Part shown: positions 1 through 50,012 of the stretch, piece by piece | Layout: each line of letters begins with the position of its first letter | Numbering within the stretch: the first letter of the stretch is position 1 | DNA from: a virus | Virus record (IMG/VR): IMGVR_UViG_3300015202_000006 | Span: 1 to 64,000 of that record | Reading direction: 5' to 3' (one strand) | Length of the DNA: 64,000 nt | Program-made: the position numbers and the translations under genes | Notes under the pieces: generated by a model | Told to the model about the DNA's origin: nothing | The model's input: the letters and a program-made list of their open reading frames with translations, nothing else | Databases searched by the model: none

Positions 1-3000
1 TGCTTTGCGGCCATCTTCACGACGTCGAGCTGTCTCCAGGTATTCCACTCTTCGTCGGCGACCGGGGTGCCTTGGGGTGTCTCAACGTAGAAGTCGACCA
101 CCATGGTGTTGGTGTCCAAGGTCCCGTCGAAACGGATCTGAGGTTCCATATGATGTCCGGCAGCCTTCAAGATGGGGATTAGCGCGTCGTTCGCACCGAA
201 ACGGATCCGCTGGATGAAATACCGAGAATAGGCGGCGTGGATGCCTTCGGTAACGTCCATCACCTTAGAGATGGTGCCTGAAGGCTTAATCACCGTAGTT
301 CGAATGCTCTCAGGGATGTTGAGCTGTTTGGAATAGTCGCGGTTTTCCTTTTGAATGGCGTCGTAAACACGGTCAAGGACCGAAGGATTGAAGAACTGAG
401 GAGCCTGGAGGCACCCTGTAATGCCGGTTCCCACGCGACGATTCCTGCCAATCACTTCCATAACCTGCGGATGATGATAAAATTCAGTCGTGACCCGCTT
501 ACCCCAGCGGTGCATGAGAATCCCTGCCTCTTCGAACTCTTCGACTGAATCGAGATTAGGAAGAGGGATTTCTTGGAGATTGCAGGGCTCGAAATTTTCG
601 AGCGTAGCTTCGGCGCATTGCCCCGTTAAAACTCCATTGAAACATCCAAGGTTGCGCTTGGGCTCCGTAAAGCAGTAGACGACATCCGCTACGCCCGCCG
701 GCTCTACTGAGATAACTGTGGTGAATCTGATTGCCTCTCGTTGAGGAGAGGCCTCGAAGCTCACTCGCTCAGTATTCATCCCAAGCGACAGAAGGTCCTG
801 AATTTGAGTGGACCCGATCAAGATGCGTTTCGATTCTTTGCACATGTACATGGCTGTTCCGCCCCTGCCATTCGGCATAGACCTTTCGCCAGCGTCTCTT
901 CCGTCGCAAACTTTCGACTGTACGCCGAGGGTCGTAAGCATGCGCTGCACCTTACTCAAGAAGGCGTGATCAACTGACACGATCTGACAGCCTCCCTCGA
1001 TAGTCCTCGTACCATCGGCGTCAATCAACCCGGCCAGCCAATCTAAAGAAGACTGCACGTCCCACGTTTCTGGAACAAAGTTTTTAGGCTTGGGATCGAA
1101 CCGAAGAGATACATATGTTCGGTCTTGGGATTCTGAGTATGCCCCAATTTCTACATTCATGCGTGGGATGCATTTCACCTTTTCACCATACACAGTGAAA
1201 CCCGTGTAGCCGTCCATCCCATCACCGGACAGGAAGCCCTGGCCGTAGGCCCACTTGATCGCCTCACCGCCTTCGATAACAGGAAATTTGTGCTTGATCA
1301 GCTTATCGCCGGGGACAAGGTCCTGAGCGTCCTTCCGTTCGGCCCCACCTCGATAGTCGGTCGACAAGACGAATTTGTGCGCGATGGTGCAAGTCAGCGA
1401 TCTGCCGTCACTCAAGGCGACCTTGACCATTTCTTGGTTGTGTCCGGTCACGCGAGGAGTAACCATCGACCATTCAAAACCATTCCATACGTTGATGGTC
1501 TTACCGACAAGCGTCTGGATTTCCTCGTAACCGGTCTCGGTCAAAATCTCGGTTCCAGCTGGCACGCAAGGGTTTACTCCGACCGCAGTGTCCTTTTTCT
1601 TTTCGCCCATCCGACCGTAAGTCTGGATGTTCTTGCGATTGACGATTCCAAAGGGCTCGCCATTCTCGTAGGTCTTCCAGAAGAGTGGTGTCAGGTCCTC
1701 GTCAACGTCTTCACAAACGACAGACAAATTGGCGAACGCACGCCAAGTCGGGATCGGACCGAGGTCCCAGCGCTTCGACTTCAGGTATTCCTTGTCGAAG
1801 GGGTCACCGAGGATAATGATGGCCGATCGGCGTACGTTGCCGGCAACGACCATTTCTCCCGTGCAACAAAGGAGGTCCATGGCGTCGATTGGCCGGATGT
1901 GCTTGCCTTCACGGGCGAGTAGAAGGGCGCAAACGTTCTCAATGAACTTGATGAGCGGGATTGGGCCTGAGGCGGTTCCGCCAAACCCGACAATGGATTC
2001 GCCGTATCCACGAACGCAAACCGTGGAATAGGTGAAGCCCTTGCCAGTTACGAAGAACGCTTCCAACGTACGGCGAAAAAGCTCGCACCAGCCTTCACGA
2101 GAGTCAGGGACGATGAAGTCAGCATCCTTGGTGCCTTTGTGTTGGATGACGACACTTCTTTTGATCTTAGGCAGCTTCGAGGCGAAGCGCTGCTCTACGG
2201 ACATCCCTACGCCTCCTCCGAGCATCAGGAGATCCATGGCGATGACAAAGTTGTTCCACTCTTCCGAGGTAACGAACCAGCAGTTGCCAGTGACGGTTCC
2301 GTACTCAAGTGTGAACGAGCGAGTTTCGGGTTCTGTGACGCAGTAAACGGGCTCGACGATATTTAAATCTTCAATAGATCGCACAAAGAGAAGTGACGAC
2401 TCGTTTTTGATCGTGAGTGTTCGAATCTGATTTGACCGCACTCCAAAATTTGTCTCAAGATTCGAGTCTATGATGTCGCCGGTGATCACTACCCCGAGTA
2501 GTGGGGCGCGCTCGCGCAGCCAGTCGATAGCGGCGTGGTCGGTTGACCCCAGGCGGCCTCGTGTCGATCCGTCCGCAGCGAACCATCCGTTATAAAATCC
2601 GGCCTGGTAATCCCACGAAGTCCCATCACCCGGAACTTCCTTGAGATTAATTTGTGATTTCAAAGTTACAACAGCTTCAAAATTCGAAGATAGGTGTCTG
2701 GCCACCGAAACAAAACCGTCCTGCTTCATCAGGGCATCTAAGTGTTTAGATTTGTCGCCGCATAGACGGATCGCAAAGCGTTCTGGGTAGTAGGTGTGCC
2801 GAGTCCCGTCGCCGAAAATTAGACCGTGTGCGAACCCATTTTTAAAATCCTGAGAATCTTCAAGAGCCTCTCGTGGGTTAACTCGGACCTGGTCGCCGAC
2901 TTGAAGGTCGGTAGTATCCCCACGTTCGGTCAGCCACATATGGTTTCGAGTCGCGTAAAAATATTGCTCGGCCCCGCCGCCCCGTGGAGACATCGTAATT

Positions 3001-3422
3001 TTGAATAGCGCCTGCTCACCGAACTTCGAGACAACCGCCTTACGCTGTTTTCCGTCAGCGCATATGACTGAAACGCTACGTCCAACGACCTCCTTAAAGG
3101 ATTGAAGCCTTCCGTCTGCGAAGAATCGAGTATCTCCGGAGAAGCAATTATTAAGCGCTACGCCGCCAATGCGTGCGTGGGATGGCGCTCCCGAGAACCA
3201 ATAGCCGCGTCCTGCAGGACCTGCTTTGCGGTTGAGCATGAGGTAACGGAGTCGATCTTCTTCATTTGGAAGGAGATGTTTAGTTCCGCGAAACCGTCCA
3301 ATGTTGCCTTCGATTACTCGATCGATGGTCTGGGTCCAGGTTTCAGTAGGACCAAAGTCTTTACGGGCGTAGGTGCGTTTGTAAACAACCTTGGCAAGGT
3401 TGCTCCACAGCTTAACTGACAT
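1..3422 (-). CDS. nrdJ: Class II (B12-dependent) ribonucleotide reductase with two inteins, partial
   Basis: Reduces ribonucleotides to deoxyribonucleotides for phage DNA synthesis. The minus frame is open from ATG at 3422 to the window edge (about 1140 codons, 3' end missing). Host-protein segments read ALNN, then CWFVTSEEW...LGGGVGMSVE, GNVRRSA, ANLSVVC, then GVNP, CAEATLENFEPCNLQEIP and VIKPSGTISKV. These match adenosylcobalamin-dependent NrdJ-type enzymes. Two inteins interrupt it: 3146-2283 sits just before the Cys of LNN^CWF, and 1568-618 just before the Cys of NP^CAE. Both insertion points are conserved active-site segments. The start is supported by AGAGG about 8 nt upstream and a variant phage promoter some 50 nt upstream. 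NrdJ identity is certain from the motifs; splicing activity is inferred. Confidence 0.93.
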   Translation of the reverse strand, partial: MSVKLWSNLAKVVYKRTYARKDFGPTETWTQTIDRVIEGNIGRFRGTKHLLPNEEDRLRYLMLNRKAGPAGRGYWFSGAPSHARIGGVALNNCFSGDTRFFADGRLQSFKEVVGRSVSVICADGKQRKAVVSKFGEQALFKITMSPRGGGAEQYFYATRNHMWLTERGDTTDLQVGDQVRVNPREALEDSQDFKNGFAHGLIFGDGTRHTYYPERFAIRLCGDKSKHLDALMKQDGFVSVARHLSSNFEAVVTLKSQINLKEVPGDGTSWDYQAGFYNGWFAADGSTRGRLGSTDHAAIDWLRERAPLLGVVITGDIIDSNLETNFGVRSNQIRTLTIKNESSLLFVRSIEDLNIVEPVYCVTEPETRSFTLEYGTVTGNCWFVTSEEWNNFVIAMDLLMLGGGVGMSVEQRFASKLPKIKRSVVIQHKGTKDADFIVPDSREGWCELFRRTLEAFFVTGKGFTYSTVCVRGYGESIVGFGGTASGPIPLIKFIENVCALLLAREGKHIRPIDAMDLLCCTGEMVVAGNVRRSAIIILGDPFDKEYLKSKRWDLGPIPTWRAFANLSVVCEDVDEDLTPLFWKTYENGEPFGIVNRKNIQTYGRMGEKKKDTAVGVNPCVPAGTEILTETGYEEIQTLVGKTINVWNGFEWSMVTPRVTGHNQEMVKVALSDGRSLTCTIAHKFVLSTDYRGGAERKDAQDLVPGDKLIKHKFPVIEGGEAIKWAYGQGFLSGDGMDGYTGFTVYGEKVKCIPRMNVEIGAYSESQDRTYVSLRFDPKPKNFVPETWDVQSSLDWLAGLIDADGTRTIEGGCQIVSVDHAFLSKVQRMLTTLGVQSKVCDGRDAGERSMPNGRGGTAMYMCKESKRILIGSTQIQDLLSLGMNTERVSFEASPQREAIRFTTVISVEPAGVADVVYCFTEPKRNLGCFNGVLTGQCAEATLENFEPCNLQEIPLPNLDSVEEFEEAGILMHRWGKRVTTEFYHHPQVMEVIGRNRRVGTGITGCLQAPQFFNPSVLDRVYDAIQKENRDYSKQLNIPESIRTTVIKPSGTISKVMDVTEGIHAAYSRYFIQRIRFGANDALIPILKAAGHHMEPQIRFDGTLDTNTMVVDFYVETPQGTPVADEEWNTWRQLDVVKMAAK
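618..1568 (-). other. Intein 2 in RNR, with LAGLIDADG homing endonuclease
   Basis: 317 residues between GVNP and CAEA. Begins CVPAGTEILTETGYEEI (block A). The block-B-like segment is SLTCTIAHKFVLS. It carries GQGFLSGDGMDG and an exact LAGLIDADG (WLAGLIDADGT), so the homing endonuclease is probably intact. It ends VVYCFTEPKRNLGCFNGVLTGQ before Cys+1, when the gap-free junction is read in two pieces: VVYCFTEPKRN and LGCFNGVLTGQ. The terminal residue is Gln rather than Asn and the penultimate residue is Gly, an unusual C-terminus known only from a minority of inteins. Confidence 0.88.
2283..3146 (-). other. Intein 1 in RNR, with LAGLIDADG-type homing endonuclease
   Basis: 288 residues between ALNN and CWFV. 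Begins Cys-Phe-Ser-Gly-Asp-Thr, the classic intein block A. A block-B-like ATRNHMWLTERG follows. Two dodecapeptide-like motifs, GFAHGLIFGDGT and GFYNGWFAADGS, mark a DOD homing endonuclease. The C-terminal block is FTLEYGTVTGN followed by Cys+1. The penultimate residue is Gly, where most inteins have His, so the final Asn-cyclisation step may use another helper residue or be slow. Boundaries are set by aligning the flanks with RNR. Confidence 0.88.
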
Positions 3423-5896: not shown

Positions 5897-6370
5897 TTAG
5901 GCAGCGCCACTCAGACCGGTAGGGCCACAAGTATCATCATCATCATCGTCGTCGTCGAGACACGCGTCGAGCAGATCGTCTTCGGTGAGAGGAGGCTCCT
6001 CCTGTCTTAAACCTTTTGGGTTAATGAGATCGTTTAAGAAAGTAGCAAACTTTTTAAGATCAAAAGGCTTATCGATAACGACGATGTTATGGCCTAATTT
6101 GAAAAGCCGGGATTTGGCTTCTGTGCCTAATGCCGTGATCATGATGATTGGGATGTTTGCCTTTAGGGCCGCCTCCACCAGAACGTCTCCACGAACTCCA
6201 GGCATCTGAAAGTCGGTCACTATCATGTCGGGCTCTTGGGTCTTGAGGAACTCGAATGCCTCATGAACGTTCGTCACGCTCGTCACCCTCATTTTTGCTC
6301 GACGTAAAATTTTCGTAATAATCAGTCGAATCTCATCGTTATCTTCGACCAGAAGAATGTGTTTACTCAT
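5897..6370 (-). CDS. Response-regulator receiver protein with poly-Asp tail
   Basis: 157 residues. CheY-like receiver domain at 1-115: acidic pair in LLVEDNDE, phospho-acceptor Asp in VTDFQMPG, conserved Thr/Ser region IIMITA, and Lys in VIDKPF. There is no output domain; a short linker leads to a run of eight Asp near the C-terminus. It could accept phosphate from a host histidine kinase and act by protein contact, as CheY and Spo0F do. It is unusual in a phage and is one of three receiver-like proteins here. A variant box (TGTATAAAT, 6386-6395) lies upstream. Confidence 0.88.
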   Translation of the reverse strand: MSKHILLVEDNDEIRLIITKILRRAKMRVTSVTNVHEAFEFLKTQEPDMIVTDFQMPGVRGDVLVEAALKANIPIIMITALGTEAKSRLFKLGHNIVVIDKPFDLKKFATFLNDLINPKGLRQEEPPLTEDDLLDACLDDDDDDDDTCGPTGLSGAA

Positions 6371-6526
6371 GTTGCGTCTCGCTCCGATTTATACAACCAA
6401 GCACGATAGCCTTTGTTGCTTGTTATAAGAGTATCGTCCTTATTTTCTTATTATTAAATGTGTCCGAGATGACAGATTGAAAAACATATACAATCGTTGG
6501 TTTGCTAACTTTAGTGGGTCACTCGG
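6371..6526. other. Divergent intergenic region
   Basis: 156 nt separating the minus-strand receiver gene from the plus-strand aminotransferase. It is AT-rich and contains TTGTATAAATC reading minus (6386-6396). Apart from the flanking promoters I see no gene. Confidence 0.4.
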
Positions 6527-6537
6527 TTCCGTATAAA
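6527..6537 (+). promoter_or_regulatory. Leaderless phage promoter, aminotransferase
   Basis: TTCCGTATAAA; TATAAA ends at 6537 and the ATG is at 6544, a 6-nt gap. AGGAG touches the ATG directly, too close for a normal ribosome binding site. Confidence 0.75.
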
Positions 6538-6543
6538 AAGGAG

Positions 6544-7521
6544 ATGATTGACACACGCATAGGGAACCCTGAGTTCATGAAACCCTATTGGCAGGCCTCT
6601 GAGGAGACGTTCCCGGGGCTTAATGTCCCTGTCTCCAGGGGCATGCGCTACGACCGTTCCCCGGAAGAACGCCAGCTTAAGGAAGAGATCGTTCGGATTC
6701 ATCAAAATATTAAGAACGTGGCCAATCCCGGATCGTATGAAATCGTCATTGGCTGTGGGGCCACGCAGCTACTCGCTGCCGCTCTCTACACGGCAAAGCG
6801 CTCCGGTATCGATGAGGTATACGCTCGCCCTCCTTATTATTTTAGATTTCCGTTTATGGCAGACGCTGCCGGCCTAACCCTCACCGGAAGTGGTATCGGT
6901 ATTCGAGCCCGTCCGCACGCCGAAATCATTACCGTCCCAAGTAATCCAGACAATGTCGTTTACGAACAGAGTGATCTCGCGTTCCCTATTTTTGATCTCT
7001 GCTACAATTGGCCCCAGTACGGGCAGGTCATTGCCCGCGATGACGATCTGATGATTTATGGGATGTCTAAAGCCACAGGTCATTCGAGCTGTCGGATTGG
7101 TTGGGCTCTTGTAAAAGACAAGAGCGTCGCAGAACAGATGCGTTTCTACATTGAAATCGCTTCAGGCGGATCGTCCATTGAATCCTTGATTCACGCAAAA
7201 ATGATTCTGAGTGATCAGTCGCACCTCTATGATGAAGGGTCCGAAACGGACTCAGTCTTTGAATACGGGAAAGAAATCTTGAACGATCGCTGGGAACAAA
7301 TCAAAGCGCTCGATGTTCCTTGTCTGGAGGTGCTGAACACATCCGGCATGTTCCTCTGGGCGACATACAAGGATGGAATGGCCAGTCTTCGTCAAGACAC
7401 TCAGATCCATGGGACTGACGGTTCGCTTTGTGGAGGCAGCTCAAAACACGTTCGCATTAGTATTGGCGGTTCGAATGAGAACTTTCGGGAAGTTATCAAT
7501 TCCTTTAAAGGACTAGAATAA
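6544..7521 (+). CDS. PLP-dependent aminotransferase, class I/II, alliinase/TAA-like
   Basis: 325 residues of fold-type I PLP enzyme. Residues fit the cofactor site: IGCGATQLLAAAL (phosphate side), SNPDN, IFDLCYNWPQY, and the Schiff-base Lys in YGMSKATGH followed by SSCRIGWALV. The pattern (cGATQ, YNWPQY, SKATGHSS.RIGWA) recalls alliinase and plant tryptophan aminotransferase families more than AspC. The start at 6544 was chosen over 6502 because it lies exactly 6 nt after the promoter box. Substrate unknown. Lying upstream of an IPNS-like oxygenase and ThyX, it may serve nucleotide modification or a small-molecule step. Cytoplasmic. Confidence 0.85.
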   Translation: MIDTRIGNPEFMKPYWQASEETFPGLNVPVSRGMRYDRSPEERQLKEEIVRIHQNIKNVANPGSYEIVIGCGATQLLAAALYTAKRSGIDEVYARPPYYFRFPFMADAAGLTLTGSGIGIRARPHAEIITVPSNPDNVVYEQSDLAFPIFDLCYNWPQYGQVIARDDDLMIYGMSKATGHSSCRIGWALVKDKSVAEQMRFYIEIASGGSSIESLIHAKMILSDQSHLYDEGSETDSVFEYGKEILNDRWEQIKALDVPCLEVLNTSGMFLWATYKDGMASLRQDTQIHGTDGSLCGGSSKHVRISIGGSNENFREVINSFKGLE

Positions 7522-7778
7522 TGGCTCATCCAAGAATGCTCGGCGCTACCTTTGAAACACGGGATGGATTGATCAGCCGAGATTCCACGCTCGTCTCTTT
7601 TCCGCCGCCCCATGAGTATCTTAGACCAATGCGGATCGAAGGACGCCAAATCAGAGAACTCGGCCCAAACGTCATCGAGATTGCTCCGATTCGAAAATAC
7701 CGACTCGAGAAGATCCTTTTTAAAAACGACGAGTTCGGAAACCGCGTTCCCGTACGCGCCTGGTACGTCGAAACGTGA
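7521..7778 (+). CDS. Hypothetical protein
   Basis: 85 residues starting MAHPRMLGATFETRDGLISR. The ATG shares its A with the aminotransferase TAA (TAATG), so it is probably co-translated. Predicted to be mostly beta with a basic mid-section (IEIAPIRKYRLEKILF). Not recognised. Confidence 0.65.
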   Translation: MAHPRMLGATFETRDGLISRDSTLVSFPPPHEYLRPMRIEGRQIRELGPNVIEIAPIRKYRLEKILFKNDEFGNRVPVRAWYVET

Positions 7779-7864
7779 GCGCCGTCATCCTTTCTGATCT
7801 GAGATTCGTTCATACCCCTAAGACCAGAGAGTTCACCATCTGGCATAATGAGGTCGAAGAGTGA
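7775..7864 (+). CDS. 29-residue micro-protein
   Basis: GTG start overlapping the preceding TGA (GTGA). Reads MSAVILSDLRFVHTPKTREF then TIWHNEVEE. Its TGA overlaps the GTG of the phosphoesterase gene. Coupled position on both sides is the main support; it could instead be a spacer. Confidence 0.42.
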   Translation: MSAVILSDLRFVHTPKTREFTIWHNEVEE

Positions 7865-8511
7865 AAATAGTCATTGTTTCGGACACTCACGGTTTTGAAG
7901 GTATTGAAGTCCCTGATGGGGACTTGCTCATTCACGCCGGAGACTTCTCTGGACGTGGAACTGAAAAGGACCTGATCCGTTTCAATGCCTGGATGGGAAG
8001 ACTCCCTCATTCCAACAAGTTGGTTATTCCAGGAAACCACGATCTATTCGTGGAAAAGGACCCTGACCTAGCCAGAGTCATTGCGACCAACTTCAGGTTT
8101 CTGATCGACGAAGAAATATCAATCAACGGCATCCGTATCTTCGGTTCACCCTGGACCCCTCAATTCGGCCCTTGGGCGTACATGCGTGACCCCTGCCAAA
8201 TGAAAGAGGTCTGGGAGCGTCTACCAAGCGGTCTCGATATATTAGTCACTCACGGACCTCCTCATGGCGTTCTGGATGAGGTTATTTCCTACGAGGAAAA
8301 AAGCGGGAAGACTGGGATTGGTCATGCCGGATGTGTTTCACTTTTTAATCGAGTGATGGAAATAAAACCCAAACACCATCTTTTCGGACACATCCACGAG
8401 GGGTATGGCGAGCTGGAAATGTACGGCACTAAGTTTATCAACGCCTCAATATGCACGAGATGGCACAAGCCTACGAATCCTCCGATCGTCCTCGAGATCG
8501 AATCCGTATAA
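7861..8511 (+). CDS. Calcineurin-like metallophosphoesterase
   Basis: 216 residues, GTG start. Two-metal phosphoesterase motifs in order: SDTHG (residues 7-11), HAGDFSG, PGNHD, THGPPHG and FGHIHEG. The set resembles the MPPED/YfcE-type small phosphodiesterases. Likely hydrolyses a phosphodiester or cyclic nucleotide; substrate unknown. The gene is coupled to upstream micro-genes and ends in the codons Glu-Ser-Val-stop, whose bases form the next promoter. It stands beside a receiver-like protein of the cyclic-phosphate-associated type, which may not be chance. Confidence 0.87.
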   Translation: MKIVIVSDTHGFEGIEVPDGDLLIHAGDFSGRGTEKDLIRFNAWMGRLPHSNKLVIPGNHDLFVEKDPDLARVIATNFRFLIDEEISINGIRIFGSPWTPQFGPWAYMRDPCQMKEVWERLPSGLDILVTHGPPHGVLDEVISYEEKSGKTGIGHAGCVSLFNRVMEIKPKHHLFGHIHEGYGELEMYGTKFINASICTRWHKPTNPPIVLEIESV

Positions 8512-8512
8512 A
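8503..8512 (+). promoter_or_regulatory. Leaderless phage promoter inside the 3' end of the phosphoesterase gene
   Basis: TCCGTATAAA encodes Ser-Val-stop of the upstream gene and lies 6 nt before the ATG at 8519. Confidence 0.78.
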
Positions 8513-8518
8513 ACAGGC

Positions 8519-8887
8519 ATGCCCATTCAAAAGGAAGTTTTACTCGTCGACGATCTTCGGGATCCGAGTGATGTCCGTAAGCATCAAGATGAGCTTACTA
8601 ACGAATGGATCTGTTTCGAAGATGAAGAAGTAGAGATTGCTCGTACTGGTGAAGAGGGGATTAATCTCCTTCAGACACGCCGCTGGGAAACTCTCCTCCT
8701 GGATAACGACATGGGTGCAGGGATTGAAGGCCATGAAGTCCTAAGTTTTCTTCAAGACAATCCCCAGCACCTTCCTTCAGTAATTATTTTAGTCACAGCG
8801 AATATCATAGCCGGCAATCGCATGTCTGATGACCTCCGGATTCTAAAAGCCAATGGTCTTATCCGTGACTTCGGATGGAGACGGTAA
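8519..8887 (+). CDS. Receiver-like protein, possibly cyclic-phosphate receiver type
   Basis: 122 residues starting MPIQKEVLLVDDLRDPSD. The alternating fold and acidic residues (LLVDD; LLLDNDMGAG; IILVTAN) are receiver-like, but the core LDNDMG..G.EVLSFL and TANxxxGNRM fits the atypical cREC type reported near nucleotide-signalling systems better than CheY. The start at 8519 is set by the promoter; a longer frame from 8405 would overlap the phosphoesterase gene. The phosphoesterase next door would suit a shared signalling role (inference). Confidence 0.65.
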   Translation: MPIQKEVLLVDDLRDPSDVRKHQDELTNEWICFEDEEVEIARTGEEGINLLQTRRWETLLLDNDMGAGIEGHEVLSFLQDNPQHLPSVIILVTANIIAGNRMSDDLRILKANGLIRDFGWRR

Positions 8888-9726
8888 TGAACGTTTTAAA
8901 GGTGGACTACACCGATCCCGAGGCGGCTCTTAAGCTCGATCAGTCTCTTCGTGAGACGGGTTTCGCTGTTTTGGTGAACCACCGGATCGATCCGGGCTTG
9001 CTTGCTGCGGCCTATGCCGATTGGGCAGTCTTCTTCGCTAGCGAGAAAAAATATCGATACACGTTTGATCCGAAGGATCAGAGTGGGTTCTTTCCTTTCA
9101 AGACCGAGCACGCCAAAGACTCTTCTATCAAGGACCTAAAGGAGTTCTTCCACATGTTTCCCGATACCGATCTTCCGGTCGGAATGAGCAATGCCACTAA
9201 GAAGCTTGCTAAAGCGCTTATGGGTCTTGGTGAAGAGATTTTGATCGCACTCGATAACGTTCTCCCTAAAAAGATTTCAGATAAGCTCGACGAGCCTTTA
9301 GTGTCCATGATTCAGAGGAGCGAGGGCACGCTCTTCCGGATCCTCCATTACCCACCATTGAACGGTTCCGAAGAAACCGGTGCTGTAAGAGCGTTTGCTC
9401 ACGAAGACATCAATCTCATCACCCTATTGCCAGCAGCCACCGCATCAGGCCTCCAGGTTCGGGATATGAACGGTAACTGGGTGGATGTGCCCGTCGATCC
9501 CGGAAGCATCGTTATCAATGCTGGAGACATGCTGAAGGAGGCCACAGACGGCTATTACCCGTCCACTACCCACCGAGTGATGAATCCGGTGGGTGAGGAA
9601 GCGATTTTGTCTCGTTACTCGATGCCGATGTTCATCCATCCTCGTCCGGGCGTCGTTCTCTCTGAACGATACACTGCCGGACAGTATTTAACCGAGCGCC
9701 TCGCTGAGATCGGACTACTTAAATGA
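8887..9726 (+). CDS. 2-oxoglutarate/Fe(II) oxygenase, isopenicillin-N-synthase-like
   Basis: 279 residues. N-terminal dioxygenase segment (LRETGFAVLVNHRI), then the iron triad His-x-Asp in AHEDINLITLLP and distal His in STTHRVMNP, followed by Arg-x-Ser in LSRYSMP, which binds 2-oxoglutarate in this family. The length is close to plant-type and bacterial IPNS-like oxygenases. The TAATG junction with the receiver gene sets the start. It could hydroxylate or desaturate a small molecule or a base; substrate unknown. It lies between an upstream aminotransferase and ThyX. Confidence 0.85.
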   Translation: MNVLKVDYTDPEAALKLDQSLRETGFAVLVNHRIDPGLLAAAYADWAVFFASEKKYRYTFDPKDQSGFFPFKTEHAKDSSIKDLKEFFHMFPDTDLPVGMSNATKKLAKALMGLGEEILIALDNVLPKKISDKLDEPLVSMIQRSEGTLFRILHYPPLNGSEETGAVRAFAHEDINLITLLPAATASGLQVRDMNGNWVDVPVDPGSIVINAGDMLKEATDGYYPSTTHRVMNPVGEEAILSRYSMPMFIHPRPGVVLSERYTAGQYLTERLAEIGLLK

Positions 9727-10403
9727 GTTCTGGAGAAGATATGGAAAACCCAAAAGACCTCAGCGCACAGTACGTCGATTCGATGGGATCCGATTTAACG
9801 CCTGTGAACGCGGCGAGAATCTCCTTTAATAACTCCTCAGAAGAGCTGACCGAGAAAGACAAGAAGCTCATCAACTATCTGGCCAAGCACCAGCACATGT
9901 CTGTTTTTGAACATTGTTCTCTTACGGTGATTGTCCATTGTCCTCTCTACATCCGGTCTCAGTGGCATCGCCACCGCACGATGTCCTACAATGAGGTGTC
10001 TCGCCGCTACACCGCAGACGATGTCGAGTTCTATGTTCCGCCAGTTGATGACATCCGGTTACAGAGCAAATCCAATAAGCAGGGGAGTGAAGGCCCGATG
10101 GACCCGGCCCAGGCTGAACTCGCTCAGGCAGCAATGGTTGAGATCTCAATGAAGGCCAATGAAGTGTTCGAAAAGCTCATTGCTCTTGGTGTCGCACGCG
10201 AACAGGCCCGGGCCATCCTCCCTCAAAACGTCATGACGAAGTTCTACGCCACCGCAAACCTTCGTAACTGGGCCGCGTTCCTTAAGCTTCGTCTGGACCC
10301 GCATGCGCAGAAGGAGATTCGGGTTCTTGCCGAGCAGGTGTCCGAGATCATCAAAGAACGCTGGCCAGTGAGTTACAAGGCTCTTGTGGAAAGCGATGAA
10401 TGA
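9723..10403 (+). CDS. thyX: Flavin-dependent thymidylate synthase
   Basis: 226 residues. Carries the ThyX signature RHRTMSYNEVSRRY (RHRx7S), plus RAILPQNVMTKFYATANLRN and an N-terminal LINYLAKHQHMSVFEH. Converts dUMP to dTMP using FAD, NADPH and methylene-tetrahydrofolate. Supports phage DNA synthesis with the RNR and dUTPase also encoded here. ATGA overlap with the oxygenase gene. A second possible start is the Met 6 codons in. Confidence 0.95.
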   Translation: MSSGEDMENPKDLSAQYVDSMGSDLTPVNAARISFNNSSEELTEKDKKLINYLAKHQHMSVFEHCSLTVIVHCPLYIRSQWHRHRTMSYNEVSRRYTADDVEFYVPPVDDIRLQSKSNKQGSEGPMDPAQAELAQAAMVEISMKANEVFEKLIALGVAREQARAILPQNVMTKFYATANLRNWAAFLKLRLDPHAQKEIRVLAEQVSEIIKERWPVSYKALVESDE

Positions 10404-10633
10404 TCGACTCTCTTAAGTTTCGGTGTCGTTACTGCGACAAGCTATTTACGAAATCGGCACACGAAATAAAAAGAGAAGGCTCGATCAGGTGTACATACTG
10501 CAACGACCCTTGCGACGAAACTACTGTCGTAGAAGAAAAATCTATTCGGACCGATGTGTTTGGATATCGATTCAGTCCCGATTTTCAAAAGCAGTCGAAC
10601 GATCCTGATGCCTGGACCGAGTTCGTGGACTAG
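10400..10633 (+). CDS. Small zinc-ribbon protein
   Basis: 77 residues. CRYC and CTYC pairs (about 22 residues apart) at the N-terminus suggest one zinc ribbon, followed by an acidic, aromatic tail (FGYRFSPDFQKQSNDPDAW). ATGA overlap with thyX. Possible adaptor or nucleic-acid-binding protein; not recognised further. Confidence 0.72.
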   Translation: MIDSLKFRCRYCDKLFTKSAHEIKREGSIRCTYCNDPCDETTVVEEKSIRTDVFGYRFSPDFQKQSNDPDAWTEFVD

Positions 10634-10662
10634 CTGCGTATTAAACAGGAAGAAGTTACTTT

Positions 10663-10800
10663 ATGAACTCAGAAATATTGATCCGACTTGGTTTCAAATC
10701 AGGTTTTATGTTTGCTCTTGGGGCGCTGAGCGCAATGCTCGCCATGCAGCTTCTTCAGTTCGGATTCGGGTACTTGAGCCTGCTGGTTTCTAGCCACTAA
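10663..10800 (+). CDS. 45-residue single-span membrane protein
   Basis: Starts MNSEILIRLGFKSGFMFALG; the hydrophobic stretch at 13-42 would cross the membrane once. AGGAAGAAG lies upstream as a weak ribosome binding site, and GCGTATTAAACAGG at 10636-10649 resembles a degraded phage promoter. Function unknown. Confidence 0.58.
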   Translation: MNSEILIRLGFKSGFMFALGALSAMLAMQLLQFGFGYLSLLVSSH

Positions 10801-10884
10801 AGATTATCTCCATCCCTTCTTGTCCTAACCATGAATGATTTCAGCATGTGTCATTTATTCTATTTAATAAAAACTAAACGGTAA

Positions 10885-10938
10885 TTCAGCATTAATGCTG
10901 AAAATGAGCTTGCTCAAATAAAGTAGTCAAGCTAATAT
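10885..10938 (+). promoter_or_regulatory. Sigma70-like promoter with 18-bp palindromic operator
   Basis: TTCAGCATTAATGCTGAA (10885-10902) is a perfect palindrome. It is followed by TTGCTC (10910-10915), a 17-bp spacer and TAATAT (10933-10938). This is a good host-type promoter with an operator-like site just upstream. Half of the palindrome recurs at 3553-3565 and a short part at 18631-18637. Confidence 0.65.
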
Positions 10939-10969
10939 CTTTTTAGGTGGTTAAACACCTGGAGAGAAC

Positions 10970-11410
10970 ATGAACCGAAATAATCTGTACTCGAAAATAG
11001 CTCTGGAAGATTTCTACCAGATCTATCTCGATGAGCCAGGTGCTCTCCTTGTCGACAGTCACTTTATGGGAGCGGCCCATCACTTGAATTGTTGGATTAA
11101 TTCAAGGGATCTGCACCCTAGTCTTTGCGAGTTTCATTTGGTACGCTTTGGTGCTCACCTGAGGCATCTCTATGAGACGGTTTACGTTACTGGCGACTTC
11201 TTGCTAGCCGTGGACCCATCAGAGAGGAATCTGCATCAGAGGAAAACCTGGAGCCCTAACCTTTTGAGTTATCCTCACGAGACAATGTTCAAGGATATGG
11301 TTTCAGACGAAAGAGTTCCGATGGGTAAAGAACACCCCTACGATCGTCTGCTACATAGTCTAGCCCCGCCCCAAACCCTAGCGAGTAGCTGTTTAGCACT
11401 CGCCTCATGA
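10970..11410 (+). CDS. Hypothetical protein under a host-type promoter
   Basis: 146 residues starting MNRNNLYSKIALEDFYQIYL. It has a well placed GGAG ribosome binding site after a small hairpin (GGTGG/CACC). His- and Trp-rich middle (GAAHHLNCWINSRDL). No family recognised. A sigma70-like promoter with an operator suggests early expression. Confidence 0.66.
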   Translation: MNRNNLYSKIALEDFYQIYLDEPGALLVDSHFMGAAHHLNCWINSRDLHPSLCEFHLVRFGAHLRHLYETVYVTGDFLLAVDPSERNLHQRKTWSPNLLSYPHETMFKDMVSDERVPMGKEHPYDRLLHSLAPPQTLASSCLALAS

Positions 11411-11435
11411 TGAGAGCATAAGAAGGAACCCCCTC

Positions 11436-11762
11436 ATGTCTAAGCAGAACGTAAAGTCGGGACTGACGCTTGATTCTAAAAACTTCGATATCAAGCTTCC
11501 TGGCGATGACTGGCAGAACATAGCCAAGTACTTAGGCGAGGCTCTTTACGTCGCCGCAAAGAAAATTCAGGTTCACTACAAGGGCGAGACTCCGGTGTCG
11601 GTCCAGCAAATTTATATGGAGCTAGTACAGAAGGCGACCGACCATGCCGAAGACCTGATAAACAATGAAGCGGAAGTGGAGCTGGGCCTGGCCGAAGAAG
11701 ATTCGGATGAGGAAGATGATAGTGAGCAGCCACCGAAAGGGCACTCTGCCTGGAAGCCATAG
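11436..11762 (+). CDS. Acidic hypothetical protein
   Basis: 108 residues starting MSKQNVKSGLTLDSKNFDIK. Helical middle, then a strongly acidic tail (AEEDSDEEDDSEQ). A DNA-mimic or chaperoned structural role is conceivable but unproven. GGAACC-like site upstream. Same direction as the preceding gene, 25 nt apart. Confidence 0.64.
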   Translation: MSKQNVKSGLTLDSKNFDIKLPGDDWQNIAKYLGEALYVAAKKIQVHYKGETPVSVQQIYMELVQKATDHAEDLINNEAEVELGLAEEDSDEEDDSEQPPKGHSAWKP

Positions 11763-11866
11763 GCTAAAAAGGTGGCTGAAGAGCGTTTGATGCTACTTGC
11801 AAGTTTAGATGCGATAAAAATGCATCGCCAAAGCCATTCAAATTGTCTGCGCTGATAGCTAAGAAG

Positions 11867-11953
11867 TGGTCCCCGCGAATCGACTCGAACGATCATGCCC
11901 TTGCGAGCGCCGCGCCCTGAACACGGTGTGTCTACCAATTCCACCACGCGGGG
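11867..11953 (-). tRNA. tRNA-Leu (CAG)
   Basis: Minus strand folds as a type II tRNA. The acceptor CCCCGCG pairs with CGCGGGG, followed by A and an encoded CCA. The anticodon stem is CCGTG/CGCGG with loop TTCAGGG (anticodon CAG). A long variable arm GCTC-GCAA-GGGC and a T arm with TTCGAGT complete it. Total 87 nt, normal for leucine tRNA. It lies 9 nt from the integrase 3' end. It could serve translation of CTG codons or as an integration site. Confidence 0.93.
11926..11939 (+). repeat. Direct repeat copy within tRNA-Leu (att-like)
   Basis: GTGTGTCTACCAAT, identical to 13285-13298. Similarity extends leftward over CCCTGAA with four mismatches in 25 nt. In the tRNA it covers the D arm and part of the anticodon stem. 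Confidence 0.6.
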
Positions 11954-11962
11954 ATTTACGGG

Positions 11963-13075
11963 TCAAAAAGCCTTGACCATAAGTGTGATCCGGTCAATAG
12001 CACGATCGGTCAGGACGTATCCAGTGTAATACTTTCTGACTGTCGTTTCGTCGTCGCCAAGAAGCATCGCGATGTCGCTTAAAGTGGCTCCTTTTTCAAG
12101 CATGTAGATGGCGTAGGAGTGCCGTAGATCGTGCGGCGAGATCCACTTTGAACGGTCCTTCGGGAACGCTTTCTTTGCCGCTCTAGTAATTTGCTGACAG
12201 GCGATGTCCTTCCTAATTCGTCTCTTTTTTTCTAGGGAAAGGTCGCACCATTGAGCAAATTCTTCTTTGCCGAATGGAAGAATTACGGTCGTGTGCGGGT
12301 TGCCATTCTTCAAATAGCCAACGATCTCGCCGGTTGCTTTGACCATTTGCTTATGAACATAGATCCCGCCATTGGGCTTCAGGACTTTTTTGTCGTTAAA
12401 AGCAAAGGCTTCGCCCGACCGGACCCCGGTGCAAAAGAGGGTGGCGGCCAAAAGCTTCACTTCCTCAGAGTGGATGTGTGGGATTATCTTCTGAAGCTCA
12501 TCCCAGGTAACGTAGCTCACTTCTTTGTATTCTTTTTCAGAGACCAAAAGTTGAATGTCGCGCTTCAGGAATCTAAGGAGCTGGTTCACCCGTATCGAGG
12601 TATTCCTTTGGTCACGGTTGCCCTTAAGCTTATCTGACTTGGCCTGAAGGTCGGCCTTTGTGGCGACGTGGACACTGAGGGGCTCGATGTTTCGGATTGA
12701 TCTAAGAAAGTCGTAATAGGCGGCTGCGGTTCCAGTTTCTCTGCGCCTCTTATTGCCTTTAATTGGACGAACCTTTTCTACCTCCCAAAACTTTCTGAAG
12801 ACATCAAGATTGTCGTCCGAAATCAGGCTCTCTAACGCGACCCGGTCCTTGATCCCGGCTGCGACTTTGAGTCTGGTAATGATCTTTTCTTTGATCAAAA
12901 TCTCCGCGACGGCAGGGCTGGTCACCTTGCTCTTTACGGCCTCATTTAGACTATCTAATTCTTTGTCATCTACTTGGGTCTGCTCGCGGCGGCCATCGGC
13001 GTATTTAACGTCCTTGATGATCGCGAATGTTCGCCGCTTCTTCCCGGGCTTCTTCAAGCTGTATCTGATTTTCAC
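11963..13075 (-). CDS. int: Tyrosine recombinase / phage integrase
   Basis: 370 residues. The C-terminal catalytic domain shows Arg in CTGVRSGEAF, the HDLRHSYA box (His-x-x-Arg), a GDDETTVRKYY segment holding the likely nucleophile Tyr, and a Lys-bearing beta region between. The usual second His/Trp of GH is Asp (LLGDDE). The N-terminal part is a typical core- and arm-binding region. Catalyses site-specific recombination. The neighbouring tRNA-Leu and flanking repeats suggest its attachment site. A minus-strand phage promoter sits upstream near 13380. Confidence 0.9.
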   Translation of the reverse strand: MKIRYSLKKPGKKRRTFAIIKDVKYADGRREQTQVDDKELDSLNEAVKSKVTSPAVAEILIKEKIITRLKVAAGIKDRVALESLISDDNLDVFRKFWEVEKVRPIKGNKRRRETGTAAAYYDFLRSIRNIEPLSVHVATKADLQAKSDKLKGNRDQRNTSIRVNQLLRFLKRDIQLLVSEKEYKEVSYVTWDELQKIIPHIHSEEVKLLAATLFCTGVRSGEAFAFNDKKVLKPNGGIYVHKQMVKATGEIVGYLKNGNPHTTVILPFGKEEFAQWCDLSLEKKRRIRKDIACQQITRAAKKAFPKDRSKWISPHDLRHSYAIYMLEKGATLSDIAMLLGDDETTVRKYYTGYVLTDRAIDRITLMVKAF

Positions 13076-13208
13076 GCCATAGCTCCTTCAAGGGCGGACG
13101 GCGACCGTAGACCCTCGCTATTACATCGGCGAGTTGCTTCAATCGCTTAAGGTCCTGAAAGGAGACTATGTGTGAATCAGGTGAAGTAAAATCTACCACT
13201 GAACTCAT
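13005..13208 (-). CDS. Small protein upstream of integrase, possible directionality factor
   Basis: 67 residues starting MSSVVDFTSPDSHIVSFQDL. Overlaps the integrase start by 71 nt. Basic helical centre (RLKQLADVIARVYGRR). Location and size fit an excisionase or regulator, but no HTH signature is clear. A longer form from 13259 is possible. Weak ribosome binding site. Confidence 0.45.
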   Translation of the reverse strand: MSSVVDFTSPDSHIVSFQDLKRLKQLADVIARVYGRRPPLKELWRENQIQLEEAREEAANIRDHQGR

Positions 13209-13284
13209 TTTTCCGTCTACCAAACTTGCATAACTAATTGAAACTATTGGTAAAAGCACATAGGCATTTTCGCCCCTGAAACGA

Positions 13285-13298
13285 GTGTGTCTACCAAT
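13285..13298 (+). repeat. Second copy of att-like direct repeat
   Basis: GTGTGTCTACCAAT, the same orientation as in the tRNA-Leu gene, 1.36 kb away. The two copies flank the integrase unit. No complete second tRNA is present here. Confidence 0.6.
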
Positions 13299-13374
13299 CG
13301 CGTTATTTTGTCAATGGTTTCAGTAAGAACGAAAGAAGGTTGACCCGTGCTTCCCGCGTGGTTCGGACAAGGGT

Positions 13375-13384
13375 TTTATACGGG
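13375..13384 (-). promoter_or_regulatory. Phage promoter toward the integrase operon
   Basis: Minus strand CCCGTATAAAACCC. No start codon lies close, so the transcript would have a leader of about 160 nt running over the att-like repeat. Confidence 0.55.
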
Positions 13385-13464
13385 AGGCGATTCATGAGCC
13401 CGGCGCGGGAGGACTCTGGTTCGGGCGGGCGAGAGGCCGGGCGATTTATGCGGGCGGTGCCTTT

Positions 13465-13474
13465 TCCGTATAAA
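13465..13474 (+). promoter_or_regulatory. Leaderless phage promoter, methyltransferase-like gene
   Basis: TTCCGTATAAA with GTG at 13481, exactly 6 nt after TATAAA. Confidence 0.75.
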
Positions 13475-13480
13475 ATCGAT

Positions 13481-14119
13481 GTGGCACAGAACTTATCTCA
13501 AGCACTCATTACGCGACTTCCATACGCGGCTTCACACGACTCAAAAGTCATTTTCGAGCAGTGTAAAAAGGTCGATCTCCGGGGACTAATTTGTCTCTCC
13601 ATCCCGATCTTCGTGGAGGCCCCAAATAGTGGGGGCAAACTCATCACGGAGCTTGAGGCGATGGGTCTCGTCTTGGTGGCCAAGATCGCCTGGTACCGCG
13701 ATCGTCACATTGTCTGCTCAAGGTCCCGCCGGCTGACTAATACCTGGGAAGAGATCGCCATTTTCTCGCGGTCCAAAAACTACATTTTCGATCGCGCTTC
13801 GGTCACCAAGATCAAAGCCCACTACGCCAACAAGACCGATTCCTTCACCGAAGAAGAGTTCCTCACTTGTGTTGGCGATCACTGGGGAGTGCCAAACGAT
13901 CGTCGCGACCGGCGCTACCTTCCAGAGCAGATCGTCCTCAACTGCGCAAACCTGGCCCAGCTTCAGCCCGACGACACCGTTCTAGATCCGTACGGAAACC
14001 CAGGAGTGCAAGACGCCTGCGACCATTACGGGTGGACCTACAAAGACGGGCTCCTCCCAAGCGAACTTCGAACCACAAGAAAGGCTCCTAAGAAAGAGCC
14101 TGGCCTCAAATCCGTATAA
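13481..14119 (+). CDS. DNA methyltransferase-like protein, motifs degenerate
   Basis: 212 residues from a GTG placed 6 nt after the promoter. The C-terminal PEQIVLNCANLAQLQPDDTV and LDPYGNPGV resemble the end of beta-class N4/N6 adenine/cytosine methyltransferases (PxxL...VLDPFxGSGT). The SAM loop lacks its usual Gly-rich FxGxG, and no clear DPPY catalytic motif is visible. It may be inactive, divergent, or a binding-only relative. Ends Lys-Ser-Val-stop, overlapping the next promoter. Confidence 0.5.
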   Translation: MAQNLSQALITRLPYAASHDSKVIFEQCKKVDLRGLICLSIPIFVEAPNSGGKLITELEAMGLVLVAKIAWYRDRHIVCSRSRRLTNTWEEIAIFSRSKNYIFDRASVTKIKAHYANKTDSFTEEEFLTCVGDHWGVPNDRRDRRYLPEQIVLNCANLAQLQPDDTVLDPYGNPGVQDACDHYGWTYKDGLLPSELRTTRKAPKKEPGLKSV

Positions 14120-14120
14120 A
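14111..14120 (+). promoter_or_regulatory. Phage promoter for the chaperonin gene
   Basis: TCCGTATAAA embedded in the Ser-Val-stop of the upstream gene; the ATG is 12 nt after TATAAA, twice the usual gap. Confidence 0.7.
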
Positions 14121-14132
14121 ATTAAGAGTCGT

Positions 14133-15848
14133 ATGAAACTTGTTACCTACCTAGATTCAGCTGAGTTCCGAAAAGAAGTGCTTAAAGGCATCACCGATCT
14201 CTCGTTGATTGTCGGCCAAACCCTCGGGCCCGGCGGACGACCGATTCTGATCGAGCAAGAGAATGGCGTATTGGCCACTAAAGACGGCGTCACCGTAGCG
14301 CTTGCCTATGCCGCTCATACTCCTATTCAAAAGATCGTTGCCCAGGCGGCGGTCGAAGCGTCTACCCGCACAGTAAAAGCCTGTGGAGACGGCACTACTA
14401 CCTCGCTGGTACTTGCAGCCGCAATTACGCAAGCCGGACAGGAGTGGCTCCAAAGGAATCCGACCTACAGCCCTCAGCGTCTCGCTCGCGAGCTAAAAGA
14501 CATTCTGAAGACCCAGATCGAGCCAATGGTCACGAAGCTCTCAAAAGGCATTAAGAACCTTCCTGTAGATGAAGCTCGTAAGGCGATCTACCACGTCGCC
14601 ATGGTGTCTTCGAACTCTGACGAAAATATCGCAAACTCCGTTGTTGAAGCGACCGACTATGTTGGCCAAGACGGATTCGTCGTTATTGAAGAAGGCGCAG
14701 GCGGCACCGAAACCTCTGTTCAACACAAGGACGGGTTCCCAGTTAATTCTGGTCTCGCTGATCTCGGTGGAGCGGCATCCACTGCTTTCGTGAACCGTAA
14801 GAACTACGGGGACTGTGTTCTATCCGGTGCCTACGTCACGCTCTACGACGGCGAAATTAATGATATCGAAACCGTTACCTCGCTCCTCCAGCGTGTAGCT
14901 TCCGAACAGGACGAACGCGGGAACGTCACTCGCCGCCCGCTTGTTATTTTTGCACACGGCTTCGGCGATACGGTCCTTCGGATTTTCGCTAACAACTTCC
15001 GTAAGGGAACTCTCAGTGTAGTTCCAATGGTCACCCCAAGGTCCGGACAGGCCAATGGCCGCCAGAGCTTCCTTTACGACATGCTCGCATACGTTGGCGG
15101 AAATGTTTTTGATCCCACTGAGCGGCATCTCACTGAAGCATCGCCAGCAACCATCGGCTTTTGCGAAGAAGTGAAAGTTACCATGAGCGATGCAGTCTTC
15201 ATGACTTCGCCCGATGAAGAGGCTGTCGCTTCCCGTATCCAGGAGCTTAAGGACCAAATGGAAGGTCAGAGCGAGTTTGATTGCGATAAAATGCGTTATC
15301 GTATCGGACGTCTTACGGGTGGTGTCGCAACTATTTACGCTGGCGGCGCTACGGCACTCGAAGCAAAAGAACGCCGCGATCGTATCGTGGATGCTGTCAG
15401 TTCAGTTCGATGCAGTGTTGATCTCGGGATCGTACCCGGAGGAGGAGCAACTCTTCTTCATATCGCCCGAAACCTTCCGCAAGTAGGCCCGTCCCAGATC
15501 TTTGTTCAAGCACTCACCCGGCCGTTCGTACAAATTCTCCTCAATGCCGGCATCACTACCACTGAGGATGACGCTCTTATCAATTTCGGATCCAAGGTTG
15601 GCGAACAACCTGACGGCCTATTCTATGTCTTCGACGCCCTCAAGCGCGAACAGGTGGAGTGGTATACGTCGGGAATTTTCGATCCTGCCAAGGTGACGCT
15701 ATCCGCCCTGAGTAATTCTTTGTCCGTTGCTCAGACACTCATGACTACTGGCGGGGCAATTGCCCGCACGTTGAATGATGGCGAACATCAAGCGCGGGCA
15801 ATGCAAGAGGCCATGCTTAAGGCCGTAAACAATGGAGAATTAGAGTGA
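14133..15848 (+). CDS. groEL: GroEL-like chaperonin (Hsp60)
   Basis: 571 residues, slightly longer than bacterial GroEL (about 548). ATP-site signatures are present: LGPGGRPILI, KDGVTVA, ACGDGTTTSLVLA, VPGGGATLLHIA, and the catalytic Asp in LEAKERRDRIVDAV. Apical and intermediate domains are divergent. Folds phage proteins, possibly the capsid, in the cytoplasm, as proposed for other large-phage chaperonins. No GroES-like gene lies next to it, so it may work alone or with host GroES. A trypsin-like protease gene overlaps its end. Confidence 0.95.
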   Translation: MKLVTYLDSAEFRKEVLKGITDLSLIVGQTLGPGGRPILIEQENGVLATKDGVTVALAYAAHTPIQKIVAQAAVEASTRTVKACGDGTTTSLVLAAAITQAGQEWLQRNPTYSPQRLARELKDILKTQIEPMVTKLSKGIKNLPVDEARKAIYHVAMVSSNSDENIANSVVEATDYVGQDGFVVIEEGAGGTETSVQHKDGFPVNSGLADLGGAASTAFVNRKNYGDCVLSGAYVTLYDGEINDIETVTSLLQRVASEQDERGNVTRRPLVIFAHGFGDTVLRIFANNFRKGTLSVVPMVTPRSGQANGRQSFLYDMLAYVGGNVFDPTERHLTEASPATIGFCEEVKVTMSDAVFMTSPDEEAVASRIQELKDQMEGQSEFDCDKMRYRIGRLTGGVATIYAGGATALEAKERRDRIVDAVSSVRCSVDLGIVPGGGATLLHIARNLPQVGPSQIFVQALTRPFVQILLNAGITTTEDDALINFGSKVGEQPDGLFYVFDALKREQVEWYTSGIFDPAKVTLSALSNSLSVAQTLMTTGGAIARTLNDGEHQARAMQEAMLKAVNNGELE

Positions 15849-49961: not shown

Positions 49962-49967
49962 GCAGTT

Positions 49968-49977
49968 TTTATACGGA
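49968..49977 (-). promoter_or_regulatory. Leaderless phage promoter, dUTPase fusion
   Basis: Minus GTCCGTATAAAAA; 6 nt to ATG at 49961. Back to back with the helicase promoter. Confidence 0.76.
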
Positions 49978-49995
49978 CCCGGCCACCGACCCCAG

Positions 49996-50005
49996 TCCGT
50001 ATAAA
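49996..50005 (+). promoter_or_regulatory. Phage promoter, helicase
   Basis: GTCCGTATAAAACAGG; ATG at 50013 is 7 nt after TATAAA, and a GTG at 50010 is 4 nt after. Confidence 0.75.
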
Positions 50006-50012
50006 ACAGGTG

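Follow-up and report, generated by a model that had tools for sequence, protein, structure and literature searches.

Two predicted inteins of different families before active-site cysteines C119 and C408 of a phage class II ribonucleotide reductase

Introduction

How might a phage ribonucleotide reductase (RNR) be made from a gene interrupted directly before two of its catalytic cysteines, and by what chemistry would the interruptions be removed? This question is raised by a gene at the start of IMG/VR virus record IMGVR_UViG_3300015202_000006, of which bases 1–64000 of 64,064 bp were analysed (hereafter the window). The account which we propose, with a probability of about 0.85, is that of a phage RNR bearing two homing-endonuclease inteins of different families, which would be spliced out from positions preceding the equivalents of C119 and C408 of the L. 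leichmannii enzyme RTPR.

Phage RNRs with inteins, in some cases several in one gene, have already been described (Dwivedi et al. 2013, PMC3653736). The present gene is a further case of these and is in itself ordinary. Two aspects are less familiar. One intein lineage occupies equivalent cysteines across RNR classes, and a whole family combines a cysteine at position 1 (Cys1) and a cysteine at position +1 (Cys+1) with the Trp-Cys-Thr (WCT) triplet that constitutes the signature of class 3 inteins (PMC5222942, PMC7664689). No published description of such a family was found in the literature searched, of which coverage was partial. Surveys of class 3 inteins requiring the absence of Cys from position 1 (PMC7891396) would leave it out.

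The host gene and its two inteins

An uninterrupted frame of 1140 codons begins with an ATG at position 3422 and runs on the minus strand to position 3, reaching the contig start. Its best family match is TIGR02505 (RTPR), with an E-value of 2.2e-81; this match is broken into pieces and its bit score falls below the curated threshold, which is not surprising for a query split by inteins and truncated. The Pfam models RNR_Alpha and RNR-II_ins_dom scored above their cut-offs, and matches to the barrel domain, to LAGLIDADG_3 and, weakly, to Intein_splicing were also obtained. When residues 93–380 and 619–935 are removed, the joined exteins form a protein of 535 residues which aligns to L. leichmannii RTPR (PDB 1L1L) with an E-value of 5.8e-75. 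In this alignment LNNCWF falls at C119 and NPCxE at C408, together with EPCNL, and the residues equivalent to C119, C408, E410 and C419 are all kept, C119 and C419 being the redox pair. The C-terminal redox cysteines of the RNR fall past the contig end. The possibility of a circular contig with the 3' end of the gene at its opposite end was checked, and the missing end is absent there. Judged from these alignments, the gene product is a monomeric, B12-dependent RNR; its assignment to class II agrees with the original prediction. The parts of the gene are as follows.

3..3422, minus strand: class II RNR gene (adenosylcobalamin-dependent, monomeric RTPR/NrdJm type), 3' end cut by the contig start; assigned from TIGR02505, Pfam and PDB 1L1L
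3147..3422, minus strand: N-extein, 92 amino acids (aa), ending ...GGVALNN, aligned to RTPR as far as N118
2283..3146, minus strand: intein 1, 288 aa (residues 93–380), NN^C...TGN^CWF, before the Cys equivalent to RTPR C119
2808..2810, minus strand: first LAGLIDADG acidic residue of intein 1, Asp113 (GLIFGDG; Asp in 54/56 of its family)
2571..2573, minus strand: second LAGLIDADG acidic residue of intein 1, Asp192 (GWFAADG; Asp in 53/56)
1569..2282, minus strand: middle extein, 238 aa, CWFVTSE...GVNP
618..1568, minus strand: intein 2, 317 aa (residues 619–935), NP^C...TGQ^CAE, before the thiyl-radical Cys equivalent to RTPR C408 and E. coli NrdA C439
1014..1016, minus strand: second LAGLIDADG acidic residue of intein 2, Asp185 (LAGLIDADG; Asp in 53/55 of its family)
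3..617, minus strand: C-extein, 205 aa, incomplete, starting CAEATLENFEPCNLQ and including the equivalents of C408, E410 and C419

Intein 1 thus lies between N118 and C119 of RTPR, and intein 2 between P407 and the thiyl-radical cysteine C408. The prediction of two LAGLIDADG inteins of 288 and 317 residues, each directly before a conserved active-site cysteine, held in every detail of length, junction and terminal residue (Gly-Asn and Gly-Gln). Blocks A, B, F and G occur in order and in frame in both elements, for which exact empty alleles are known. Intein 2 is matched by NCBIfam intein_Nterm and Pfam LAGLIDADG_3, and each element carries two LAGLIDADG-type motifs with both acidic residues kept, indicative of a putative endonuclease. 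A chance resemblance is excluded, since intein 2 aligns over 317/317 residues, at 79% identity, with an intein at the same site in another phage, and intein 1 can be aligned over its full length with inteins from the RNRs of named phages. The G+C content of the inteins (0.51 and 0.53) is similar to that of the exteins (0.52–0.55) and therefore composition shows no sign of recent arrival.

The unspliced precursor could not be active, because each intein makes a catalytic cysteine its own +1 residue, so that both are tied up. Protein splicing would excise the two inteins and restore LNNCWF and NPCAE, an expectation which rests on the intact frame, the defined boundaries and the existence of empty relatives.

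Empty sites and mobility

Relatives of the gene, numbered here with the prefix L, reveal the state of the two sites before insertion. In five viral contigs (L002–L006) the RNR is 59–70% identical to that of the window over the whole extein and both sites lack an insertion, so the intein-free relatives with intact LNNCWF and NPCAE junctions that had been foreseen do exist. The empty sites of L006 read GGVALNNCWFVTSE and DTAVGVNPCAEATLE, the same as the joined flanks in the window. The intein 1 site is vacant in L002–L008, L007 (the same as L013 and L113) and L008 having intein 2 only, while both sites are occupied in L036 (the same contig as L122) and L114. The RNR genes of L002 and L008 are 88% identical in DNA, with intein 2 present only in L008. 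Such a mixture of sites left empty in close relatives and occupied elsewhere is the patchiness commonly seen with homing elements.

The closest relative of intein 2 is that of L007, whose host is also a class II enzyme. At 79% identity, the two inteins are more alike than the RNR exteins (68–70%) and than the major head protein and DNA polymerase, which are only 34% identical between these phages. For this reason intein 2 seems to have moved between the lineages of the window and L007 more recently than their core genes parted. The intein 2 of L008 is 51% identical to that of the window at the same extein identity as L007. A comparison of L002 with L008, made to detect a tract of co-conversion flanking the intein 2 site, showed no divergence peak adjoining the site. 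Given the intact motifs, the patchiness and an intein identity which exceeds that of the host gene, the endonucleases would be expected to copy each intein into vacant alleles.

It has to be considered whether such elements are kept for regulation as well, for instance as redox sensors holding the RNR inactive until conditions suit, rather than being selfish elements alone. For each intein a catalytic cysteine serves as the +1 nucleophile and additional cysteines are candidate nucleophiles, and a published report presents the class 3 intein of mycobacterial DnaB as an oxidative stress sensor operating through conditional splicing (PMC6195587). However, close relatives of the gene manage without either intein, and intein 2 moves faster than the host gene, as a selfish element should. 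A regulatory role is accordingly regarded as quite improbable.

In the viral records of L002 and L008, the DNA polymerase open reading frames (ORFs) are 1726 and 1721 aa long, versus about 1197 aa in the phages of the window, L006 and L007. The additional residues, some 500 in each, may be inteins.

C-termini and assisting histidines

Both inteins had been described as having unusual C-termini. This part of the original prediction did not survive comparison, because the same endings, a penultimate Gly and a terminal Asn or Gln, prevail across both families (n=56 for intein 1 and n=55 for intein 2). In the family of intein 1, G:6 is Gly in 52/56 members, Ser in 4/56 and His in none; L093, one of the 52, is trimmed by the locus match and has TGN^C as its full end. 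G:7 is Asn in 55/56, with Gln in the remaining one (Thermobifida phage P318). In the family of intein 2, G:6 is Gly in 50/55, and G:7 is Gln in 45/55 and Asn in 10/55.

Neither intein possesses the block F histidine. The position is occupied by R276 in intein 1 (His in 33/56 relatives) and by N306 in intein 2 (His in 35/55). Precedents for splicing with such termini are available. The mycobacteriophage RDF intein, which has a penultimate Gly, splices fully and is slowed when this Gly is changed to His (PMC5050341). The RNR intein of Chilo iridescent virus (CIV), an insect virus, ends in Gln, as does intein 2, and splices (PMC4031507). AceL NrdHF, a class 3 intein which resembles intein 1 in lacking the assisting histidines and in residing in a phage-like RNR gene, splices well without either His (PMC7891396). 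In the proposed scheme the last step in both inteins would be cyclisation of Asn288 or Gln317, aided by neither a penultimate nor a block F histidine.

These features bear on the suggestion that one or both inteins have decayed and no longer splice, leaving the RNR dead or the precursor in some other use. Such a state would be in keeping with the absence of the penultimate and block F histidines from both inteins, and with the observation that a C-terminal Gln can slow splicing (PMC4031507). Against it, the frame is intact across both inteins and all exteins, every splicing residue which is invariant in the families is present, and C119, C408, E410 and C419 are kept. Moreover, the same termini dominate whole families, and splicing with a terminal Gln or Gly-Asn has precedents (PMC4031507, PMC5050341). 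Decay is therefore judged very improbable.

Splicing class

The residues on which assignment to a splicing class depends are the following.

3144..3146, minus strand: intein 1 Cys1 (A:1); Cys in 55/56 family members, Pro in one
2934..2936, minus strand: intein 1 Trp71 (B:12), two residues past His69 (B:10); 56/56
2340..2342, minus strand: intein 1 Cys269 (F:4), the class 3 nucleophile position; 56/56, mostly preselected by the search pattern
2283..2291, minus strand: intein 1 C-terminus, Thr286-Gly287-Asn288 (G:5–G:7)
1371..1373, minus strand: intein 2 Phe66 (B:12), replacing the class 3 Trp; Phe 46, Trp 8, Tyr 1 (n=55)
672..674, minus strand: intein 2 Cys299 (F:4); 55/55, partly preselected by the search pattern
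618..626, minus strand: intein 2 C-terminus, Thr315-Gly316-Gln317; Thr 50/55, Gly 50/55, Gln 45/55

In intein 1, H69-x-W71, C269 and T286 make up the complete class 3 signature, and they are accompanied by Cys1 and Cys+1. Across its family (56 sequences, median pairwise identity 34%) the Trp and the F:4 Cys are present in all members, the Thr in 55, and Cys+1 always. The scan of viral contigs for relatives selected on F:4 and not on Cys1, Trp or Thr; support for the F:4 cysteine which is free of this selection comes from about nine sequences, namely seven matches in phage records together with L036 and L114. The His65/Trp67 pair of class 3 DnaB inteins has the same H-x-W spacing (PMC5222942). 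In its Trp at B:12, Cys at F:4 and Thr at G:5, intein 1 resembles the class 3 inteins, for which mycobacteriophage Bethlehem DnaB, M. smegmatis DnaB-1, Bvi IcmO and AceL NrdHF served as comparison. Intein 1 differs from the class 3 inteins, which mostly lack Cys1, in its Cys1, Cys+1 and Gly at G:6.

Inteins of mixed character are not without precedent. Tori and Perler are said to have treated, in 2011, three inteins with features of both class 1 and class 3 (Catera Gp206, Nocardioides TOPRIM and Tfu2914), each combining WCT with Cys1 or Ser1, and mutation reportedly placed them in class 3. Their host proteins reportedly differ from RNR.

A natural variant at the same site is found in L114 (IMGVR_UViG_3300035633_001076, 1818–2789), whose class II RNR is 65–68% identical to that of the window over most of its length. 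The intein at its NN^C site starts with Pro, keeps the Trp, Cys, Thr and Cys+1, and ends TSN^C. It has no nucleophile at position 1 and therefore, if it splices, it would need a class 2- or class 3-like start. No near relatives of this Pro1 intein were found in viral contigs or phage records.

Intein 2 presents a different picture. Its class 3 triplet is incomplete, with Phe66 in place of Trp, although C299 and T315 are present; AceL NrdHF, which has Met at B:12, nevertheless belongs to class 3 (PMC7891396). At positions 1 and +1 both inteins fit class 1, each having Cys1 and Cys+1, and Cys1 is found in 55/55 members of the intein 2 family. Since Phe replaces Trp at B:12, intein 2 leans towards class 1 and probably starts at Cys1.

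For intein 1, we suggest at somewhat better than even odds that splicing would begin by the class 3 route at the internal Cys269, with Cys1 either assisting it or offering an alternative nucleophile. Initiation by the class 1 route, at Cys1, is a possible but less favoured course, and use of both routes by this intein appears improbable. Several considerations weigh against a start at Cys269. The chief argument against Cys1 being dispensable is its retention in 55 of the 56 relatives, more than would then be expected. A Cys at +1 is customary in class 1, whereas most class 3 inteins carry Ser or Thr at that position, and Bvi IcmO was the sole Cys+1 case known in 2016 (PMC5222942). The F:4 Cys occurs in some class 1 inteins (PMC4031507), its invariance here is inflated by the viral scan, and the L114 intein forms a long branch in the tree.

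The same observations can be taken further, to the view that both inteins are ordinary members of class 1. In that case Cys1 would start the reaction and Cys+1 would take over, the F:4 Cys would be a helper in place of the usual Asp, and the Trp and Thr of intein 1 would serve in packing alone. Retention of Cys1 in both families and of Cys+1 throughout agrees with this, as do the frequency of a large hydrophobic residue, Trp included, at B:12 of class 1 inteins (PMC7891396) and the rank of Cys as second most common residue after Asp at F:4 (PMC4031507). However, high conservation of Thr at G:5 has been reported only for class 3 (PMC7891396), W71 is invariant in the intein 1 family, and L114, a relative at the same site without a position-1 nucleophile, keeps the W, C and T. 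The class 1 view of both inteins is thus given less than even odds, and initiation of intein 1 at Cys269 is preferred.

It is attractive to consider that in the intein 1 family Cys1 and the F:4 Cys are both functional and both under selection, splicing proceeding by either route, though this is thought rather unlikely. If true, the family would form a living bridge from one class to the other, and L114, with Pro1 at the same site, would be a member already deprived of the class 1 route. This reading would also contradict the view, argued in PMC7664689, that a stepwise evolution of class 3 inteins out of class 1 is impossible. The co-occurrence of class 1 and class 3 signatures with Cys+1 in the C119 lineage makes the origin of class 3 splicing testable by a few point mutants of a natural protein.

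Two further sets of loci show variants of the pattern. L107, L108 and L110 are members of the intein 1 family of about 150 aa, which leaves no room for an endonuclease, and they keep Cys1, HxW, the F:4 Cys and TGN. In L053, L071, L085 and L111, inteins at a second RNR site have Asp at F:4 yet end in TGN, and have as neighbours in the same protein inteins of the intein 1 type, whose F:4 residue is Cys; these precursors may possibly combine two different chemistries.

Distribution across ribonucleotide reductase classes

Relatives of intein 1 were found at 80 viral-contig loci (family alignment A1), mostly in class II RNRs and in a few primase-like or unidentified proteins. Used as a single query against viral contigs, intein 1 gave no match, the short search patterns demanding close relatives, and no further relatives were present in the 48 whole viral records searched. 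A genome scan with a seven-row alignment yielded three loci. Among phages, relatives occur in the class III RNRs of Morganella phage MP1, Vibrio phage V6Aob, Klebsiella phage FBKp34 and two gut phage contigs; in Thermobifida phage P318 the host protein is a class II RNR and the insertion lies at its C119-type site. The inteins of the four named phages share with intein 1 Cys1, HxW, the F:4 Cys, TG followed by Asn or Gln, Cys+1 and the endonuclease motifs. They differ in being about 27–30% identical to it and in residing, for the most part, in class III enzymes.

The junction in the class III enzymes corresponds to C79 of T4 NrdD. By established RNR structure, C119 of class II and C79 of class III are equivalent. 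The seven class III inteins fall into three groups, interspersed with class II ones, in a maximum-likelihood tree of 55 inteins, and the starred branches force at least two changes of the class III label. On the strength of this topology, the tree indicates that the lineage has crossed between RNR classes with hardly any sequence in common at the site apart from N^C.

Relatives of intein 2 occur in 328 phage records; where the junction was read, the hosts are mainly class I NrdA. The inteins of Vibrio phage ICP1, Rheinheimera phage Barba, Staphylococcus phage St1.CM and Caulobacter phage CcrSwift have in common with intein 2 Cys1, His at B:10, Cys at F:4, a LAGLIDADG-type insert and a TGQ or TGN end. 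They also share its insertion point, directly before the radical-site cysteine, but they sit in class I NrdA whilst intein 2 is in a class II enzyme. The ICP1 junction corresponds to C439 of E. coli NrdA, giving this family sites at C408 (class II) and C439 (class I). In the intein 2 tree, with hosts labelled by junction sequence, class I and class II are largely separate (three changes). Two intein lineages have settled before structurally equivalent active-site cysteines (C119/C79 and C408/C439) in RNR classes of little shared sequence.

Outside phage records, L193, L194 and L196 are relatives of intein 1. The hosts are a class II RNR of a Thaumarchaeota metagenome-assembled genome (MAG) and a helicase-like protein of a Bryobacteraceae MAG (end TGQ), and a MobF relaxase encoded by a Skermanella plasmid also gave a match. 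In L033 and L034, an ORF from 3117 (1594 aa) encodes a class II RNR interrupted by three or more intein-like insertions, of which one occupies the C119-type site, one follows GNVRR and one occupies the C408-type site.

Other genes in the window

A block of host-like genes occupies positions 5897–16762 and includes a response regulator, an alliinase/aminotransferase-like protein, a 2-oxoglutarate-Fe(II) oxygenase, a ThyX-like ORF, a phage integrase and a protease-like protein, with a GroEL-like chaperonin at 14133–15848. Finally, an ORF of 418 aa on the minus strand (49023–50279) has its dUTPase confined to the last 125 residues, the in-frame N-terminal part reading like an HNH-type endonuclease (LDILSVDRIDSAKGYVEGNFVFCCNAINKAKG).

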